IMG/VR virus record: IMGVR_UViG_3300009164_000047 | Coordinates: 1-64,000 of that record | DNA length: 64,000 nucleotides | Direction: 5' to 3' (one strand) | DNA from: a virus | In this document: positions 976-51,130 of the stretch, piece after piece | Layout of the letters: every line of letters starts with the position of its first letter | How positions within the stretch are numbered: position 1 is the first letter of the stretch | Position numbers and translations under genes: made by a program | Notes under the pieces: model-generated | Database searches by the model: none | What the model was told of the DNA's origin: nothing | The model's input: the letters and a program-made list of their open reading frames with translations, nothing else

Positions 976-3573
976 TTAAGCTGCCATGTATGTTTTTATG
1001 CTATGTTGCAACAAATTACTCTTATCCATACTAGTAATTAAATCATCAAATTGACTGTCAATCATACTCAATAATTCTAAATCTAAGTCATCTTTGTTAT
1101 CAGTATTTTGTTTTGATGTAAATGATTGCATAGTAGATTTGGGTTTAATGGTATTTCTAATCTCAGAAAATGTATTTTCTTTAAATTCTGGTGGCAGATT
1201 AATAGGGATAGTTCCATTGAATAATTCAATCAATGCTTCACGCCCGTGCATTTCAATCTCTTTACCTTGTATCATACTCTTACCAAACTTAGCTTTTTCA
1301 ATATGTACCGGGTCGTTTCTATATGGGCGTCTAAGTCCTGCTCTTTGTAGTATTCCTCTACCCTCCATCCAATCCAATTGATCCTTACTAACGTCAACCG
1401 CAGTAGAACTCATATGAGGAGTTTCTTTTACATCAGGATTTGCCGGAGTATTTACATTTCCGTGACCGGGAACATAGACCATTGGTTTACCAGGACCACC
1501 ACCTGCTTTAAGCCAACCCTGATACAATGATTTTTGTTCGTCATATGAACGAAAAGATGATGTTAGCATTAATTTTTTATTAGTTTGTTTAAAATATTCT
1601 TGAGCCAATAATGTTACATTCTTAGCTAATCCTGGATTTCTACTAGAAAATTGTGCCCAATTTTGTGCAGAACCTGATCCTGAACCAAATTCAATATACT
1701 TGGCTGCTTCACCTAAATCAGTTTTTAATATTCTGTCATTTAAATTTTGTTTATTTTGATCTTTTTCGTGGTCACTTAATGCTCTTTCACCGGCAGTAGT
1801 AGCAGTTGTTGAGGCAGTATATCCTTTATCAATTTTATCTTTTCTTTCTTGCAGTTTTGCTCTCTCTGCTTCTAATTGTTGAATAGAAGTTCCACTTTCT
1901 ATATTTTTGTCTCTCTCATCTTTTGCTATCGTTTCAGCTTCTCTTGCGGCGTTCATTGCTTTTAGTGCTTTATCTCTTTCTGCCTCAGGCGCACCTTTTT
2001 TCACAAGATTTTTATAGTTACTTTCTGCTTGTTTTCTACTTTCTTCTGCGGCTTTCAATTTATTGTTTGGTGCCTTAACTCTTTCAATTCTAGCATCCAT
2101 TTCAGCTAATTGCTTTGCGGCATCAGCCTTCATACCTTCAAGTTGTTTTGGGTTACCAATTAGTAACATCATTTTTTCAAAGCCTTCGGTATACTTACCA
2201 CCACCAATAATTCTACCAAAATCTGCAATAGCAAACGCAGTTTTCTTAACAGTTTCAACTAATAAATTAAATCCTGTTAATGCAAATGGCATCATTTTTT
2301 GAACTACAGTGTCTTTGACAAAACCCATTTCTCGTTCAGCATCAATCATTGTATTTTTTGCATCAATTATCTTATCAGGTTCATTTGCTTTTTCAGCAAT
2401 AAGTTTTTTAGCATCTTCTTCTGTTTTTATTCCGGCAAGTTTTTCTGTTTCCTGAAATACTCTGCCATTAATACCTGATGCATTTTGTAAATCTTTTGAA
2501 ACTGATAATACATCTTTATTTTTCTTTGCATAGTTTTGATATGCAACTCCTACTTCTCTAGCAGCCTCGGCTCCAGTCATTGTACCATCTTCAACTGCTT
2601 TTGCTATTTGAGCGGCTCTGTCACCCATAACCAGCATCATCTTTTTACCTTCTTCAGTAGTAGCAGTTCCATTTGCAATCCAGTCAGCCATACCCTTATT
2701 AAGTTCAGGACTAACTTTATCTAACAATGATAATACAACACCAAAATTATCTGCCGCTTTGCTATTACCACTTTTTATCAATTCTCTCATCTTAATTTGA
2801 TAAGAAGTATTTGATTTAAGTCCGGCTAATCTAGTTGCTGCCTGATCTCTACTTTCACCGGTTAGCACACTCAATGTAGTTAGTGTGTCTACATAAGATA
2901 AGGTACTTTTTCTTAATGCTCTATCATCTTCACCAATTTTCACTCCATACCCAGTTAAATATTTTACACCCTCTGCTTGATATTTCATCAGCATCTCTGG
3001 ATTTAGACCTTGTTTTAAATACTTTAATTGGTCTTCTCTGTTATCAAAAACTTTTGCTAATCTTTCGGCTGCTTTTCCTGTATTAGGACCTAAATACTTT
3101 AATGATTCTCCTACAGAGTTGAAAGACTCCATTAACTTACCAGCTTTATCTATAGGATATCCGGCTGACTTAGCCATATTGACTAGATCAGTAGTAGTCT
3201 TGGTAGCAGATATACCTACACCAGACACACTGTCCTGTAGCTTCATTACAGTGTCAACTTGCTTAAACACTCCGCCTACTAATGCATCTGCAATTGAAAG
3301 AAGCCCTTCAACCCCTGCAGCTACATTTCTTATTGTGCCGTTTTTTGATGAGCCAAAATGATTAGTTAAACTACTAAAAGACCTTTCTATACTAATATTC
3401 CATTTTGATACATCATCTCCGGCAGTTGTTATTGCTTTACTTACACCACCGGTTATACTAGACAAATCCCTAAAGGTAGCCTTACCAAAGTTCTTTAAAC
3501 GTTTTGCTAGTTTGGCAGTTTCAGCATTTAACTGTTGTGCATTACTACTAAATTCATTTATTTCATTTGACAT
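976..3573 (-). CDS. Tape-measure-like tail protein with C-terminal M15/VanY-type peptidase domain
   Basis: This 865-residue protein has a long helical, Ala/Lys-rich body (residues about 1-640, with a charged coiled coil near 480-600) and a separate C-terminal domain. That domain starts at TSSFRSYDEQKSLYQGWL and carries H720, D727 and H757 (HMSSTAVD and DPVHIEK), the zinc-ligand pattern of D-Ala-D-Ala carboxypeptidase/M15 peptidases. The usual Gly in HxxGxAxD is Thr here. The body is paralogous to the upstream protein: YVDTLTTLSVLTGE here matches YTKNLSVLSAITGE there. Two bases separate it from that gene. Tape-measure proteins often carry muralytic domains that open peptidoglycan during injection, so I infer a tail-lumen protein with a cell-wall-cutting end. 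The tape-measure role is an inference from length, helicity and pairing with tail genes. Confidence 0.6.
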   Translation of the reverse strand: MSNEINEFSSNAQQLNAETAKLAKRLKNFGKATFRDLSSITGGVSKAITTAGDDVSKWNISIERSFSSLTNHFGSSKNGTIRNVAAGVEGLLSIADALVGGVFKQVDTVMKLQDSVSGVGISATKTTTDLVNMAKSAGYPIDKAGKLMESFNSVGESLKYLGPNTGKAAERLAKVFDNREDQLKYLKQGLNPEMLMKYQAEGVKYLTGYGVKIGEDDRALRKSTLSYVDTLTTLSVLTGESRDQAATRLAGLKSNTSYQIKMRELIKSGNSKAADNFGVVLSLLDKVSPELNKGMADWIANGTATTEEGKKMMLVMGDRAAQIAKAVEDGTMTGAEAAREVGVAYQNYAKKNKDVLSVSKDLQNASGINGRVFQETEKLAGIKTEEDAKKLIAEKANEPDKIIDAKNTMIDAEREMGFVKDTVVQKMMPFALTGFNLLVETVKKTAFAIADFGRIIGGGKYTEGFEKMMLLIGNPKQLEGMKADAAKQLAEMDARIERVKAPNNKLKAAEESRKQAESNYKNLVKKGAPEAERDKALKAMNAAREAETIAKDERDKNIESGTSIQQLEAERAKLQERKDKIDKGYTASTTATTAGERALSDHEKDQNKQNLNDRILKTDLGEAAKYIEFGSGSGSAQNWAQFSSRNPGLAKNVTLLAQEYFKQTNKKLMLTSSFRSYDEQKSLYQGWLKAGGGPGKPMVYVPGHGNVNTPANPDVKETPHMSSTAVDVSKDQLDWMEGRGILQRAGLRRPYRNDPVHIEKAKFGKSMIQGKEIEMHGREALIELFNGTIPINLPPEFKENTFSEIRNTIKPKSTMQSFTSKQNTDNKDDLDLELLSMIDSQFDDLITSMDKSNLLQHSIKTYMAA

Positions 3574-3575
3574 GA

Positions 3576-5894
3576 TTATCCTCTAGCATGATCTAAAAGT
3601 TCAGTTTGTAAATTGTTATTAAGTCTAATTCGTTCTAACAATGTATCTAATTTGTCAGTAACTGATTGTAGGACTCCGGTTGTTTTATTAGTTGATGTGG
3701 ATCCCCCAAACGTAGATAAAGATTGTTCGTCATCACTACCTTTAAGCATATTCATCATACTAGTCATCATATCAGTTAATTGTGAGGTGTCAGTTAATGG
3801 ATTATTTTTGTTACCCGTCAAATCTGCTGGCATAGAAGCCATACTCATATCGTTCTTAAACGATACCGGAATAGTATCTCCGCTAGGTAAGGGAACAACT
3901 GCAAAGTCTTTACCTTTTGGTAATTGTTTTCTATAGCCGGACATAGGTCCATCAAAAACCCCACCGGTTAGCTTGCTTGAATTATTGCTGGCTCCGTCAC
4001 CAGTAGTTCCACCAAATTTGAATTCTGGTACAGGGGCGTCTTGATTTACAGTAGACGTTGCACTCTTAGCTTGTTTGGGATTAAGTTTAGTGTTTCTTTT
4101 AGATGGTGCAGGTGCGGTTGTATTGTCCGCCTTGGGTGCAGGAAGTGCATCTCCGGATGTTTTGTAAACTGGGAGATTACGTTTTTTTGCTTCCTCTTGC
4201 CAAAATGCTGTTTGTTTTTTTAAATCAGCTACTTCTTGGGTTAAACTATCTAGACGAGGAGAGGTGCCGTCTTCATTGACTAGAGGAGCTTTAGATTCTT
4301 CGTCTAACAATTTTTGTTTCTTTTCAAGTTGGTCTAAAAATATATACTGTTTTTTCTCAACTTCTTCATCAGGTGTTACAGCCGTTATAAAATCATCAAA
4401 GTTTAAACCAAGTTGCTTTGCTAATGGACTTGCCATAAATCCAATTGCTAATTCTCTAATAGCAAGCATCGCTCCCTTAAATGCGTCTATTACCATTGGC
4501 AAGGTTAATTTTAAAAGTGTGTCCATCATCTTTGCTAATTGGTCAGTTGTATTTTTTACAGTATTTGAGAAATCAGTATAAGGATCTACTTTCTTCATTT
4601 TTTCATCAATAGCAGACTTAGTTGCGTCTAGTTGACCTTCGACCATTTTCTTAGCTGTATTTTCAAGAGTCTTTGTACCAATACCCATTGAATTTCTAAG
4701 TTCACCACTTGCCTTTAAGGCCGCGCCCATACTTATAAGAGTAGCTTCACCGCTTTCATTCAATTTATTAATAAATTCTTCTGGACTTAACTTACCGCTC
4801 TTAAACTCATTTGTCCAAGTAACAAATGCACCCTGTGTTCTGGTTGACAATGCTTGTGCTTCTGCACTGATAGCCGCACCATTTGCATATACATCTCTAA
4901 ATGCTTTCTGTGCAGATTCATCTACATTTGAACCAATAAGAGATGACATAGTTTGAACTAACTCTCGCTGTTTCATTCCTGCTTCACTATCACCCAATTG
5001 ACGTAGTGACATATTAAATGCAAAATCGTCTAAATCTTTTTGGCGTGATTGTTGTAGTGCTTCAGTAGTCTCGCCGGTAATAGCACTTAACACTGATAAG
5101 TTTTTTGTATAGTCAGTTGATTGTTTTACTAATGTGTCATCAACTTTTTTTCTACCAAAACCTAATGCACCTTGCTCTTTCATAAAAGAAGCTTGTGCAT
5201 TTAATAATTTTTCTTGACTAAAACCTAAATTAGCAAATTCGTTACGAGTCTTTTGTTGGTCTGCTAAACTATCAGTATTAAAACTTGCTAACTGTGTGAA
5301 AGTTTTAATACCCTCACCTGATGTTGCCCCTAACTTGAGTAAATCACCACCTAAACTTGTGATGGTTTTCACCATCATCTGAGATTGTCCATTGATGGTA
5401 TTGAACCCCGCATCGTTGAACATTCCCTCAAGTTCAGTTGAAGTGAATTGTGCCGCAGCACCTAAATCACCCAATTTATTGAAGTTACCAACTATCTTAT
5501 CTACTTGTGATAAATTAGCACCAACTAAAGCAGTAAACGCTTTGACTGCTAAACCAAGAACTACACCCAAAGGACCAAATGCCGCAGTTGCTAGACTTGA
5601 TAATCCCGATCCGGCAGCTTCTATTGCTCCGTTGTATTTTGATAAACTGTCGTCATTTTGAGTAAGTGCTTTAGAAAAACTTATTGCACTTTGTCCTAAT
5701 GACCTAAACCCAGCTTCGGCTTGCGCTATAGATGCTGATACAGCAGAGTCTCCACCTCTTATATCCTCAGCTGCCGTACCCATATTGGCAGCGGCACTTT
5801 GAGTAGCACTAGACAGAGACCTGGCACTTCTGTCAATCTCTTGTTTAGTATCTTCGTTCAGTCGTCTTGCTTCTTCTTCTGGATTTGTTGCCAT
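3576..5894 (-). CDS. Tape-measure-like tail protein (paralog of its downstream neighbour)
   Basis: A 772-residue, largely helical protein. I place the start at the ATG at 5892-5894 (MATNPEEEARRL); an in-frame alternative start five codons upstream adds only VKKH-type residues. It has an Ala/Ser-rich N-terminal helix region, a hydrophobic stretch near residues 105-125 (LATAAFGPLGVVLGLAVKAF), a middle section shared with the next gene (NLSVLSAITGETTEALQQSR), a Pro/Lys/Thr-rich linker near 590-650, and a C-terminal coiled coil (LQSVTDKLDTLLERIRLNNN). The hydrophobic segment inside a long helical tail protein is typical of tape measures. It diverges from the gp26-like gene across 68 bases, which puts it beside a candidate frameshifting tail-assembly pair, as tape-measure genes often are. 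The specific role is inferred. Confidence 0.55.
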   Translation of the reverse strand: MATNPEEEARRLNEDTKQEIDRSARSLSSATQSAAANMGTAAEDIRGGDSAVSASIAQAEAGFRSLGQSAISFSKALTQNDDSLSKYNGAIEAAGSGLSSLATAAFGPLGVVLGLAVKAFTALVGANLSQVDKIVGNFNKLGDLGAAAQFTSTELEGMFNDAGFNTINGQSQMMVKTITSLGGDLLKLGATSGEGIKTFTQLASFNTDSLADQQKTRNEFANLGFSQEKLLNAQASFMKEQGALGFGRKKVDDTLVKQSTDYTKNLSVLSAITGETTEALQQSRQKDLDDFAFNMSLRQLGDSEAGMKQRELVQTMSSLIGSNVDESAQKAFRDVYANGAAISAEAQALSTRTQGAFVTWTNEFKSGKLSPEEFINKLNESGEATLISMGAALKASGELRNSMGIGTKTLENTAKKMVEGQLDATKSAIDEKMKKVDPYTDFSNTVKNTTDQLAKMMDTLLKLTLPMVIDAFKGAMLAIRELAIGFMASPLAKQLGLNFDDFITAVTPDEEVEKKQYIFLDQLEKKQKLLDEESKAPLVNEDGTSPRLDSLTQEVADLKKQTAFWQEEAKKRNLPVYKTSGDALPAPKADNTTAPAPSKRNTKLNPKQAKSATSTVNQDAPVPEFKFGGTTGDGASNNSSKLTGGVFDGPMSGYRKQLPKGKDFAVVPLPSGDTIPVSFKNDMSMASMPADLTGNKNNPLTDTSQLTDMMTSMMNMLKGSDDEQSLSTFGGSTSTNKTTGVLQSVTDKLDTLLERIRLNNNLQTELLDHARG

Positions 5895-5907
5895 GTGTTT
5901 TTTGACC

Positions 5908-5915
5908 AATAAATA
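5908..5915 (+). promoter_or_regulatory. T4-type late promoter motif (AATAAATA)
   Basis: AATAAATA lies 47 bases upstream of the gp26-like start codon in the divergent intergenic region. It matches the TATAAATA element recognised by gp55-type late sigma factors in seven of eight positions. The same motif recurs ahead of many structural genes in this window. Confidence 0.5.
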
Positions 5916-5962: not shown

Positions 5963-6793
5963 ATGAGTTTAGAAAATAACCCTTTAAAGCAGTATTTCCG
6001 TCGCCCGGGAATTTATTTAAAATTACCCAGCGGTGGATTAGGATATGAACCGGGAGTAATTGAATTTCCAGAGACCGGAGACTTGCCTGTGTATCCAATG
6101 ACTGCGATTGACGAAATCACTAGCAAAACTCCAGATGCGTTGTATAACGGAACTGCTGTAGTAGATATCATTACTAGTTGCATTCCATCAATTAAACAAC
6201 CATGGAAAGTAACCTCAGTTGATTTAGATGCTATCTTAGTAGCAATTAAAATTGCAACAAATGGTTCTGAAATGGAGATTGAAACTACTTGCAATAAATG
6301 TGAGGAAGAATCAAAGTACGGGGTAAACTTAAGTATGGTTTTGAATAATTTCAGACCCGGTGATTATGAAAACGGACTAGTAATAGACCAATTGAAAATA
6401 AAGTTTCGCCCACTAACTTACAAAATATTAGCTGGTAGTAGTGTAAAACAATTTGAAATACAAAAAGGTATCATTTACATTAACAGCTTACCTGACGGCT
6501 TTGAAAAAGACGAAAAGTCAAATGAATTGTTAAAAACAATAACAGACTCAACAGTTGATGTATTAGTAGATACTATTGATTGTGTGATTACTCCGGAATC
6601 AATAGTAAACGATAGAGCATTTATTATGGAATTCATTATGAACACTGATAAGAAAACTTTTGAAGCTATCAGAGACCATAGTGTAAAATTGCGTGAAAGT
6701 ACACAAACTCAACCATTACACATAACATGTACTCATTGCAATAATGAGTATGACCAAGCATTCACATTGAATGTAAGCGATTTTTTCGCTTAA
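5963..6793 (+). CDS. 26: Baseplate hub/assembly protein, T4 gp26-like
   Basis: A 276-residue protein with the pattern of the T4 baseplate protein family (gp26 type): an N-terminal RRPGIYLKLPSGG, a central TSVDLDAILVAIKIATNG, and two CxxC pairs (CNKCEEES and CTHCNNEY) that probably bind zinc. A good ribosome-binding site (TTAGGAG, 6 bases) precedes the ATG. The final codons GAT TTT TTC GCT TAA contain a correctly phased T_TTT_TTC slippery heptamer, and the -1 frame continues without a stop into the downstream small ORF. Ribosomes could therefore make both this protein and a 351-residue fusion. In T4 the gp26 class acts in hub assembly; the frameshift proposal is mine. Confidence 0.75.
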   Translation: MSLENNPLKQYFRRPGIYLKLPSGGLGYEPGVIEFPETGDLPVYPMTAIDEITSKTPDALYNGTAVVDIITSCIPSIKQPWKVTSVDLDAILVAIKIATNGSEMEIETTCNKCEEESKYGVNLSMVLNNFRPGDYENGLVIDQLKIKFRPLTYKILAGSSVKQFEIQKGIIYINSLPDGFEKDEKSNELLKTITDSTVDVLVDTIDCVITPESIVNDRAFIMEFIMNTDKKTFEAIRDHSVKLRESTQTQPLHITCTHCNNEYDQAFTLNVSDFFA

Positions 6794-6821
6794 GGCTTCT
6801 ATACCTTGACCCCGAAGGTAT
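6781..6821 (+). promoter_or_regulatory. Candidate -1 programmed ribosomal frameshift signal
   Basis: The heptamer T TTT TTC at 6781-6787 is phased exactly as X_XXY_YYZ in the gp26 frame, two codons before its TAA stop. Downstream, ATACCTT (6801-6807) and AAGGTAT (6815-6821) form a perfect 7-bp hairpin with a 7-base loop. After slippage the frame reads RLRLLYLDPEGIGKLMDG and runs into the gp51-like ORF. The 13-base spacer is longer than the usual 5-9. Confidence 0.55.
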
Positions 6822-6831
6822 CGGGAAGCTG

Positions 6832-7017
6832 ATGGATGGTATGGAACGGGATATAAAGGCTATTAAGAAGAACTCTGTACGTATAGCCTGGTATATGCGT
6901 GGAGCCTTAACCTATGAGGATGTACTCAATCTCAGTGCTGATGAACTAAAATCGGTTAATGAAATTATTGAAGAAAACTTAGAAACTACTAAGAAAACAC
7001 AGATGCCGTTCTTCTAA
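6832..7017 (+). CDS. Small baseplate hub assembly protein, gp51-like (possibly read by -1 frameshift)
   Basis: The ORF encodes 61 residues from the ATG at 6832: a helical domain with WYMRGALTYEDVLNLSADE and the ending ENLETTKKTQMPFF. I associate this pattern with the small hub-assembly (gp51-type) ORF that accompanies gp26-type genes in marine T4-like phages; the assignment is from memory and moderate. The same frame is open upstream through LLYLDPEGIGKL to base 6787, and these residues look coding. The only SD-like sequence (GGGAA) lies just 4 bases from the ATG. It may therefore be translated mainly as the C-terminal extension of the gp26-like protein (76 added residues). Confidence 0.6.
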   Translation: MDGMERDIKAIKKNSVRIAWYMRGALTYEDVLNLSADELKSVNEIIEENLETTKKTQMPFF

Positions 7018-7536
7018 TCCATGGTATATCATTTGTTATTATTACGGTAATCACCCTATTCATTAATTGAGAGATGAACGCAGTTCATCTAAGTACTCGC
7101 TATCGCTCGTCCTTAATTGTTTACGGTTATCTAGTTTACTAATTGTAATTTGATAATTTGTATTAAGGACTATATTGCCGCTTTGAAGCCATGGTAGTGC
7201 TATTCAGCACTACCAATGGTAAAGGTATGTTTGCCATGCCCGTCATCCATAGTCATCTCTTCCCCGGATAATCAACTCTTTTCTGTTATTATTCGCCACC
7301 GGTTGCTCTGTAGGGTTTTTGGGACTGTAGTTGAAGCTATTAGGTTCTGCCTAATTCTTCAGCAACGCATGTTACATATTCGCAAGATAAAGTAAAATAT
7401 GTACTCATTGAAGGTTCGCTTTGACGAGAGCCTTCTCGGTGTTCCGTACCATTACTGATACGCATACTCCAGAATCCGACGGCACAGCACAATCTGTACA
7501 ATCTCAAGGAGGACTTGCAACCAAGCCTACGATTTT
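7018..7536. other. Noncoding, stem-loop-rich region (candidate structured RNA)
   Basis: No convincing ORF is found on either strand in this 519-base gap between two converging transcription units. It holds several strong inverted repeats: 7072-7090 (8 bp, 3-base loop); 7188-7218 (9 bp with an ATTC loop, extended by CCAT/ATGG); 7330-7366 (GTTG, GAAG and ATTAGG paired in order with CCTAAT, CTTC and CAAC); 7373-7403 (TACATATT/AATATGTA); and 7411-7436 (GAAGG/CCTTC with inner TCG/CGA). On the minus strand GATGACTA (rc of 7240-7250) and AATATAGTCC (rc near 7166-7175) resemble the P7 strands of group I introns, but no flanking exons are apparent. I cannot assign an RNA family or the transcribed strand. 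Confidence 0.5.
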
Positions 7537-7538
7537 TT
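7510..7538 (+). terminator. Probable rho-independent terminator
   Basis: AGG(a)CTTG at 7510-7517 pairs with CAAGCCT at 7522-7528 around a CAAC loop (seven pairs, one bulged A), followed four bases later by six T residues (7533-7538). It would end rightward transcripts coming from the gp26 region and the stem-loop-rich region, and overlaps the stop codon of the converging nuclease gene. Confidence 0.5.
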
Positions 7539-8103
7539 AAATGTCAATAGTTAGATTTGACTTTGTGTCTGTGTTTATATTTGACTTTGTGTCTGCTGAA
7601 TATGTTTGTACTAATTTGGTATTGTGTTTAAAGAATGAATCGAATTCCATGATGTACCAGTCACTAAACTTTTCACTTCCGTAGAAGAAGAAATTGTCAG
7701 TGATCCATGTTAGCTTGCATTGCACAGCAACATAACGACCCTTACGATTAAATTTCATAAAAAGAATATTCAAATCGTCTGGATCGGCTACATCAAGTAG
7801 TTGTTCTAACCAAGAATCCAATATTTTGTGTTCACCTGATAATAATAAGTGAAAGGGAAAATCAGCATAAAACTTACATTCTACGTTCATCTTCGGAAAG
7901 CTTTGTCCGGGCACAATATCACCCTTAAAGCTACGAATCTGACCTTCATGTAGAAACTGAGTTCTGGACTGATTCTTGCCACCAACATAAGCTCCGGAAC
8001 CAGGAGCTCGAATAAAGCTTTCGCTATATTTTTCGCTTAGATATTTTGCGATTTCTCGCTCAAATCCTGATCCTTTGTTCTTGCTCGGTGATGACATAGA
8101 CAT
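7537..8103 (-). CDS. PDDEXK-type nuclease (resolvase/restriction-like fold)
   Basis: A 188-residue protein with a recognisable PDDEXK pattern. It has an N-terminal helix with E15/E17 (GSGFEREIAKYL), a basic R-x-PGSGA turn near 32-38, D62 in FKGDIVP, and E75-C-K77 in NVECKFY. Nucleases of this fold cut DNA with a divalent metal; phage members include junction resolvases and VSR/restriction-like enzymes, and the exact substrate cannot be told here. The C-terminal 20 residues hold a near-duplicate DTKSNINTDTKSNLT. It is the last gene of the leftward gp55-gp47-gp46 block, starting 30 bases after the gp46 stop, which suggests a role in recombination or DNA processing. Confidence 0.65.
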   Translation of the reverse strand: MSMSSPSKNKGSGFEREIAKYLSEKYSESFIRAPGSGAYVGGKNQSRTQFLHEGQIRSFKGDIVPGQSFPKMNVECKFYADFPFHLLLSGEHKILDSWLEQLLDVADPDDLNILFMKFNRKGRYVAVQCKLTWITDNFFFYGSEKFSDWYIMEFDSFFKHNTKLVQTYSADTKSNINTDTKSNLTIDI

Positions 8104-50548: not shown

Positions 50549-50650
50549 ATGTTTGAAAATTGGCATTGGGTTTATATGTGGGGCATTTTAGTTGTAGCCA
50601 ACTATATGTTCTGGATAGTAAAAAGTCTTTTTGACAACGTGAAAGAGTAA
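50549..50650 (+). CDS. Small single-pass membrane protein
   Basis: A 33-residue ORF with TAAGG five bases before the ATG. The sequence MFENWHWVYMWGILVVANYM then FWIVKSLF gives one hydrophobic, Trp-rich membrane segment and a charged tail (DNVKE). It ends just before the tmRNA acceptor piece. The role is unknown; small inner-membrane peptides of this kind are common in T4-like phages. Confidence 0.5.
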   Translation: MFENWHWVYMWGILVVANYMFWIVKSLFDNVKE

Positions 50651-50717
50651 GTTATTGCTGTATGAAGCAAAGAGAAAAGTGTTCTGGACGGGGGTGCGAA
50701 TCCCCCCAGGTCCACCA
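50651..50717 (+). ncRNA. ssrA: tmRNA acceptor piece (permuted two-piece tmRNA)
   Basis: GGACGGGGGTGCGAATCCCC followed by CCAGGTCCACCA (50686-50717) forms a T-arm (GGGGG/CCCCC around TGCGAAT) and the 3' acceptor strand CAGGTCC plus ACCA. CAGGTCC pairs over all seven positions (one G-U) with GGGCCTG at 50901, which starts the coding piece downstream. The gene order acceptor-then-coding is that of circularly permuted tmRNA. TGCTGT (50656-50661) can pair with ACAGCA (50942-50947), and TGTTCT (50680-50685) with AG(T)AACA near 50926-50933, as the long P2 helix linking the pieces. The 5' boundary is approximate. Encoded CCA is present. Confidence 0.85.
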
Positions 50718-50728
50718 TAAGGAAGTTT

Positions 50729-50899
50729 GTGAAAAGTAAAAGTAAGTTCAGTCGTTTTAATCTTAAAGGCAACATTATGTGGTGCCTAAATTTGCGTAAC
50801 GGATGGGTAAGAATTTACAACACTATAATTCGTTGGAATACCGATTGGACAACTAATTATAGATACTTTTCAATAGAACAAATAAAAGTTTCTTTATGA
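50729..50899 (+). CDS. Small ORF inside the tmRNA intervening segment
   Basis: A 56-codon ORF from a GTG at 50729 to the TGA at 50897-50899, preceded by AAGGA six bases upstream. The product is basic and Trp/Tyr-rich: KSKSKFSRFNLKGNIMWCLN, then LRNGWVRIYN and IIRWNTDWTTNYRYFSIEQI. It exactly fills the 183-base segment between the CCA end of the acceptor piece and the first base of the coding piece. Processing of the tmRNA precursor would release or destroy this message. The codons and the ribosome site look real, but no family is recognised. Confidence 0.5.
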   Translation: MKSKSKFSRFNLKGNIMWCLNLRNGWVRIYNTIIRWNTDWTTNYRYFSIEQIKVSL

Positions 50900-50900
50900 T

Positions 50901-51060
50901 GGGCCTGCATAGTTTCGACAGGGCAAGTAGTAACAGAGTGGACAGCACGGTAGGCGATGACCGTTAATCAAGCAAAAAAAGTAAACGCAAACGACTCACA
51001 GTTCGCATTAGCAGCCTAAACACTGCTTAGGGTAAGACATACCTCGTAACAGAAAATCAG
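50901..51060 (+). ncRNA. ssrA: tmRNA coding piece, tag ANDSQFALAA
   Basis: It starts GGGCCTGCATAGTTTCGACA, with the conserved tmRNA D-arm-like TTTCGACAGGG. ACGGT (50947-50951) and ACCGT (50960-50964) form a stem of the first pseudoknot, whose loop GAT can pair with ATC at 50967-50969. The resume codon GCA at 50987 opens the tag A-N-D-S-Q-F-A-L-A-A, closed by TAA at 51017-51019. AGCAG (51010-51014) and CTGCT (51023-51027) make the helix that normally encloses the tag end. The LAA terminus is the ClpXP degradation signal. tmRNA with SmpB frees stalled ribosomes. The 3' end is approximate, before the terminator. Confidence 0.9.
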
Positions 51061-51083
51061 AAAAGGCTCTTAGGAGCCTTTTT
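51061..51083 (+). terminator. Rho-independent terminator of the tmRNA/late operon
   Basis: AAAAGGCTC pairs with GAGCCTTTT over nine base pairs around a TTAG loop, and the stem runs directly into a T tract. It follows the tmRNA coding piece. Confidence 0.85.
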
Positions 51084-51101
51084 CTTTGGCATAATTTTTC
51101 T

Positions 51102-51109
51102 AATAAATA
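51102..51109 (+). promoter_or_regulatory. T4-type late promoter motif (AATAAATA)
   Basis: TAATAAATACT lies 21 bases upstream of the tail-fibre ATG at 51131 and directly after the tmRNA terminator, so the fibre gene has its own late transcript. Confidence 0.6.
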
Positions 51110-51130
51110 CTATATTAAATAGGATAAATT

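Follow-up and report, generated by a model that had tools for sequence, protein, structure and literature searches.

The window analysed here is a stretch of 64,000 nucleotides of viral DNA (positions 1 to 64,000 of the IMG/VR record IMGVR_UViG_3300009164_000047). On its plus strand, a gp26-like open reading frame at 5963-6793 encodes a protein of 276 amino acids with two Cys-x2-Cys pairs, which belongs to PF12322 and PHROG 150 and is the putative short form (TAC-N) of a tail assembly chaperone. The 3' end of this frame reads ...AAT GTA AGC GAT TTT TTC GCT TAA and contains the heptamer T_TTT_TTC at 6781-6787 in phase with the frame, its TTC lying two codons upstream of the stop, as the sequence-only reading had described. 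A 6-nt spacer containing the 0-frame stop TAA (6791-6793) occupies 6788-6793 and is followed by a probable stimulatory stem-loop at 6794-6830, also on the plus strand. In the -1 frame the sequence is read as FF-R-LRLLYLDPEGIGKL-M... and is open as far as the TAA at 7015-7017. A -1 shift appends 76 residues (RLRLLYLDPEG...TQMPFF), which with the stop occupy 6787-7017 of the plus strand and represent the candidate TAC-C domain. The resulting long product would have 351 residues (275 + 76), and the length given earlier for the fusion is correct.

Conservation of the heptamer was followed in 104 non-redundant loci, which were collected by two viral-contig scans (with the gp26-like protein and with the -1 extension) and from 18 isolate regions, and which take in phages whose gp26-like protein is just 24-34% identical to that of the window. 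The heptamer was T_TTT_TTC in 102 of these loci and T_TTT_TTT in the remaining two (XacN1 and CM1), and it was in phase in every one of them. Its loss in relatives would have spoken against the earlier reading, and it was kept in all 104. Besides XacN1 and CM1, the isolates with a phased heptamer include Atu_ph07, Phosso, 121Q, RaK2, GAP32, CBB, BF, PA5oct, Paride, SCTP-2, and Vibrio 2.275.O. T_TTT_TTC was also present in 80 of 80 additional cyanophage-type loci, as well as in S-RIM8, a KVP40-type phage, PhiW-14, and ZPAH1, while Melnitz-1 carried T_TTT_TTT and the heptamer was not seen in T765, the sole Ackermannviridae locus examined. A phased slippery heptamer of the X_XXY_YYZ type is thus common to the relatives (104/104 and 80/80). 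Over the 104 relatives the 0-frame stop was located 10-40 nt from the start of the heptamer, a shift of up to 30 nt. Outside the heptamer, Phe is encoded in these genes by TTT 832 times (74%) and by TTC 289 times (26%), so codon usage does not dictate the TTT-TTC spelling. The plus strand of the window contains 12 copies of TTTTTTC, so the heptamer by itself would be insufficient; chance is excluded by its phase together with its conservation in 104 loci.

The -1 frame was open for 69-81 codons in all 104 loci despite the moving 0-frame stop, and the search for stops in this frame of the relatives, another way in which the frameshift could have failed, returned none. Among close relatives, the -1 frame had a pN/pS of 0.35 for codons 4-16, which precede the ATG of the window, and of 0.21 for codons 17-77, compared with 0.9-4.3 for the same bases in the other two frames. 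It is only in the -1 frame that the residues before the ATG at 6832 show purifying selection, and the impression that they look coding was borne out by their conservation and their pN/pS. The -1 frame therefore has the property expected downstream of an X_XXY_YYZ site, being coding and without a conserved start of its own.

The putative stimulator has a 14-bp stem between 6794-6807 and 6815-6830 that contains a 2-nt bulge; it has a free energy of -15.6 kcal/mol and starts 6 nt 3' of the heptamer. The outer helix pairs 6794-6800 with 6824-6830 and the inner helix pairs 6801-6807 with 6815-6821. The perfect 7-bp hairpin noticed in the sequence-only reading does exist, but it is only the inner half of this stem, and the conserved part is the outer 7 bp. 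Compared with a null in which the amino acids of the -1 frame were kept and codons were drawn from usage, the mean folding z was -4.7 over 54 near relatives, 52 of which reached p<=0.05; it was -2.8 in the marine group and -1.4 in the jumbo isolates outside the near clade, where the stem is weak. In the ungapped alignment of the 54 sequences, the outer helix was 95% paired versus 33-60% when it was slid, and these slid controls retain the relatedness among the aligned sequences. Two-sided changes in the outer helix amounted to 15 cells versus a shuffled mean of 2.4 and were matched by 0 of 500 shuffles, which ignore relatedness and do not correct for it. An X_XXY_YYZ site is expected to have either a downstream structure at 5-9 nt or an upstream Shine-Dalgarno-like stimulator, and the stem-loop at 6 nt lies within that range. 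The stem-loop probably helps the slip.

A Shine-Dalgarno-like 4-mer 5-22 nt 5' of the heptamer was found in 0 of 88 jumbo-type loci, whereas a Shine-Dalgarno-like G-rich motif (GAGG/AAGG/GGAG/AGGA) was present 12-15 nt 5' of the heptamer in 75 of 75 cyanophage-type loci. In the latter, the invariant Glu-Gly codons were GAG in 46 and GAA in 31 cases with GGG in 27 of 77, counts that are uncorrected for relatedness, while the background shares were 34% for GAG and 9% for GGG. Since GAG and GGG exceed background, the amino acids alone do not account for the motif. Folding of the cyanophage-type sites was also somewhat better than under the codon-preserving null, with z averaging -2.2 and p<=0.05 reached by 37 of 66 sites, and the lineages therefore differ more cleanly in the Shine-Dalgarno-like element than in the stem.

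The family membership of the short form was clear from profile searches, with E=4.2e-16 and 59.7 bits (cut-off 24.5) against PF12322 (T4_baseplate) and E=3e-17 against PHROG 150 (baseplate hub). T4 gp26 and T4 gp51 both match the PF12322 and PHROG 150 models. The cyanophage extensions matched residues 200-245 of T4 gp51, its C-terminus, with a profile E-value of 1.2e-7, and they also matched PHROG 634, baseplate hub assembly catalyst. From FFR onward, the jumbo extensions aligned over their whole length with those of the cyanophages (E=3.9e-5). Directly against T4 gp51, the match of the jumbo extension was weak (E=0.019 over 24 columns) and fell in the same place. Another profile comparison, from whose alignment the T4 proteins themselves were absent, gave E=0.002. 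By way of the cyanophage extensions, the C-terminal domain of the long form is homologous to the C-terminus of gp51. From the family and extension profile matches together it follows that T4 gp51 is a gp26-like domain fused to a TAC-C-type C-terminal domain. The earlier description of the locus as a gp26-like and gp51-like pair holds for the upstream gene, but the downstream ORF is not a whole gp51: it matches just the C-terminal ~45 residues of gp51, the TAC-C domain, and its candidacy as a complete gp51 was rejected. PF12322 was present in one copy in the record of the window and in 19 of 20 other frameshifting-type records, some of which are fragments, and in two copies in 3 of 3 Straboviridae records (T4 and two others). 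In SCTP-2 no copy was detected by the PF12322 model, yet a gp26-like gene was found by tblastn.

Structures were predicted with AlphaFold2 for the short form and the extension as separate chains, using alignments of the window and contig proteins only. The short form was modelled with a pLDDT of 88 and the extension with a pLDDT of 91, the latter as an all-helical domain in which two long helices flank a short one. In the Foldseek search against viral models, the short form matched a T4-like baseplate hub assembly protein (E=1e-23). The structural search of the PDB with the short form and the extension gave nothing significant, and no solved TAC structure was matched. The VIA rows of the PDB search (Z up to 6.7) were rejected, as they cover only the helical part, 136-232, and were tied with unrelated bundles.

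The neighbours on the minus strand (976-5909), which had been described as tape-measure-like, gave no tape-measure family match in profile searches of PHROG and Pfam, and the divergent 777-aa neighbour had no significant match to the neighbours in 121Q or Phosso. In RaK2, the gene adjoining the corresponding locus is annotated as similar to a tape measure. Within the C-terminal third of the 865-aa protein at 976-3573 on the minus strand there was a weak match to an endolysin / VanY-type peptidase. Downstream of the extension, about 500 nt (7018-7536) without an ORF of 60 codons separate it from a convergent 188-aa ORF at 7537-8103; this region holds the near-repeat 'tttgactttgtgtctg' and was without a match in the Rfam search. 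Elsewhere in the window, a permuted tmRNA gene was located at 50625-51110 on the plus strand (Rfam RF04321 at 50656-51019, 131 bits; ARAGORN tmRNA*, tag ANDSQFALAA).

The downstream frame could also be a separate small gene, started from the ATG at 6832 or by stop-codon coupling, with the heptamer incidental. This ATG is the first of the -1 frame in the window and opens an annotatable ORF at 6832-7017 on the plus strand within the extension; annotated records carry short separate ORFs at this place (121Q gp595 and Atu_ph07 gp687), and in 10 of the 104 loci an ATG at codon 3 overlaps the TGA stop, where local initiation or coupling is conceivable. However, the corresponding codon is ATG in 1 of the 83 loci with a 76-aa extension, which means that a start at 6832, the outcome that would have told against the frameshift, is not kept in relatives; the ATG is lineage-private, and a separate gene beginning there was rejected. 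Some ATG occurs within the first 35 codons of the -1 frame in 80 of the 104 loci, but before the conserved WYMRG motif there is no ATG in 24 of them and no ATG, GTG or TTG in 8. The purifying selection on the conserved residues ahead of the ATG, and a heptamer that stays invariant while the 0-frame stop moves, also oppose this explanation, which we consider very improbable, and the ORF at 6832-7017 is probably not a gene of its own. Together with S-RIM8 RW220214_010, the two annotated ORFs represent small ORFs 3' of the gp26-like gene that are truncated or separate in public annotation; each is probably the frameshift extension, annotated from a start codon within it. The fusion mRNA could also arise by transcriptional slippage on the run of six T, since this homopolymer is conserved and is a possible slippage site for a polymerase. 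But what is conserved is the phased heptamer with C at position 7 and a covarying stem at a spacing of 6 nt, features that fit tandem tRNA slippage but that slippage during transcription would not need, and there is little likelihood that the polymerase is responsible.

A different question is whether the two products are chaperones at all, or two isoforms of a baseplate hub subunit, with the frameshift giving a minor structural hub isoform. By tradition, T4 gp26 and gp51 are annotated as baseplate hub and hub assembly protein, and CBB gp250 as a structural protein. Nevertheless, tail assembly chaperones usually come as a short form and a long form whose helical C-terminal extension is added by -1 frameshifting, and T4's own two genes have been identified as TACs, according to the accounts of Vladimirov et al. 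2022 given in PMC12846349 and PMC10885494. The hub isoforms are thus unlikely, and the chaperone is favoured.

Sequence comparison shows that the signal is conserved, that the -1 frame is coding, that a stem-loop follows the heptamer, that the short form belongs to the gp26/gp51 family, and that the extension is related to the C-terminal end of gp51. From this we infer that a T4-related phage of the jumbo type very probably encodes its tail assembly chaperone here, in short and long forms made by -1 frameshifting. The sequence-only reading had proposed a programmed -1 frameshift, and every refutation test that could be run on sequence came out in its favour. The scheme that follows extends this by inference to frameshifting itself and how often it happens, to what the stem does, and to a role as chaperone. 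Most ribosomes would terminate at 6791-6793 and give the short form of 276 residues (TAC-N, gp26-like). Some, slowed by the stem-loop 6 nt downstream, would slip by -1 on T_TTT_TTC, with both tRNA-Phe re-pairing with UUU UUU, and would give the long form of 351 residues (TAC-NC, gp51-like), which carries the helical TAC-C domain at its C-terminus. If lambda G/GT is taken as the model, the short chaperone would outnumber the long one, and the two would cover the tape measure protein and bring in the tail tube subunits. As far as sequence comparison can tell, the small "hypothetical" ORF that follows the gp26-like gene in many large phages is the C-terminal part of a single chaperone, which corrects their annotation.

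The TACs of T4-like phages were identified by Vladimirov, Gautam and Davidson (Virology 2022, 566:9-15), as cited in PMC12846349 and PMC10885494. The idea that the T4 hub pair is linked to frameshifting chaperones is supported, but by those same two accounts it had already been published. PMC12846349 cites that study for polyT slippery signals in TAC-N genes of T4-like phages, with TACs occurring as short and long forms, and according to PMC10885494 some T4-like phages have a short gene plus a longer, fused one in place of frameshifting. The kind of chaperone is already known, and the locus described here is a further member, in an uncultured phage group. A literature search of incomplete coverage found no paper on the frameshift in the jumbo lineage or on the contrast between stem-loop and Shine-Dalgarno-like motif, and priority is not claimed. 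There is about an even chance that the T_TTT_TTC chaperone frameshift is ancient in T4-related phages and that its stimulator was exchanged between lineages, with an upstream Shine-Dalgarno-like motif in cyanophage-type phages, a covarying downstream stem-loop in the jumbo lineage of the window, and two divergent genes, 26 and 51, in its place in T4. If so, these phages would form a natural series on how the chaperone ratio is kept fixed while the decoding device changes. A series of lineages with a fixed heptamer and differing stimulators is useful for studying how the ratio of short to long form is set. In 2022, Vladimirov and colleagues are said to have reported that frameshifting is kept in several T4-like groups.

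In T4, gp26 (TAC-N) and gp51 (TAC-NC) belong to the same family (PF12322, PHROG 150), the short form ends at an FF motif, and the C-terminal domain of gp51 is a relative of the -1 extension in the window. T4 encodes the two proteins on opposite strands, with gp51 pre-fused, whereas in the window one gene and a slippery site would make both products; the FF codons of T4 gp26 are TTC TTT, compared with TTT TTC in the window. The comparison supports the replacement of the frameshifting chaperone by two genes in T4, with the gp26/gp51 pair as the derived form. The gp26 genes of Kyanoviridae and KVP40-type phages have the same phased T_TTT_TTC and a homologous extension from FFR. Cyanophage-type loci carry the upstream Shine-Dalgarno-like motif (75/75), while the jumbo lineage lacks it (0/88) and has a strong downstream stem-loop instead. 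The slippery sequence and the protein family of lambda gpG/gpGT differ from those of the present locus. Lambda also makes a short and a long chaperone, by a -1 frameshift close to where the short ORF ends (PMC5009743). The TACs of Vandenendeviridae and Andersonviridae (phage Adele) have a poly-T slippery motif where TAC-N ends and a -1 frame open through the next ORF, as in the window, but their motif is GTTTTT and they belong to a different phage group (PMC12846349).
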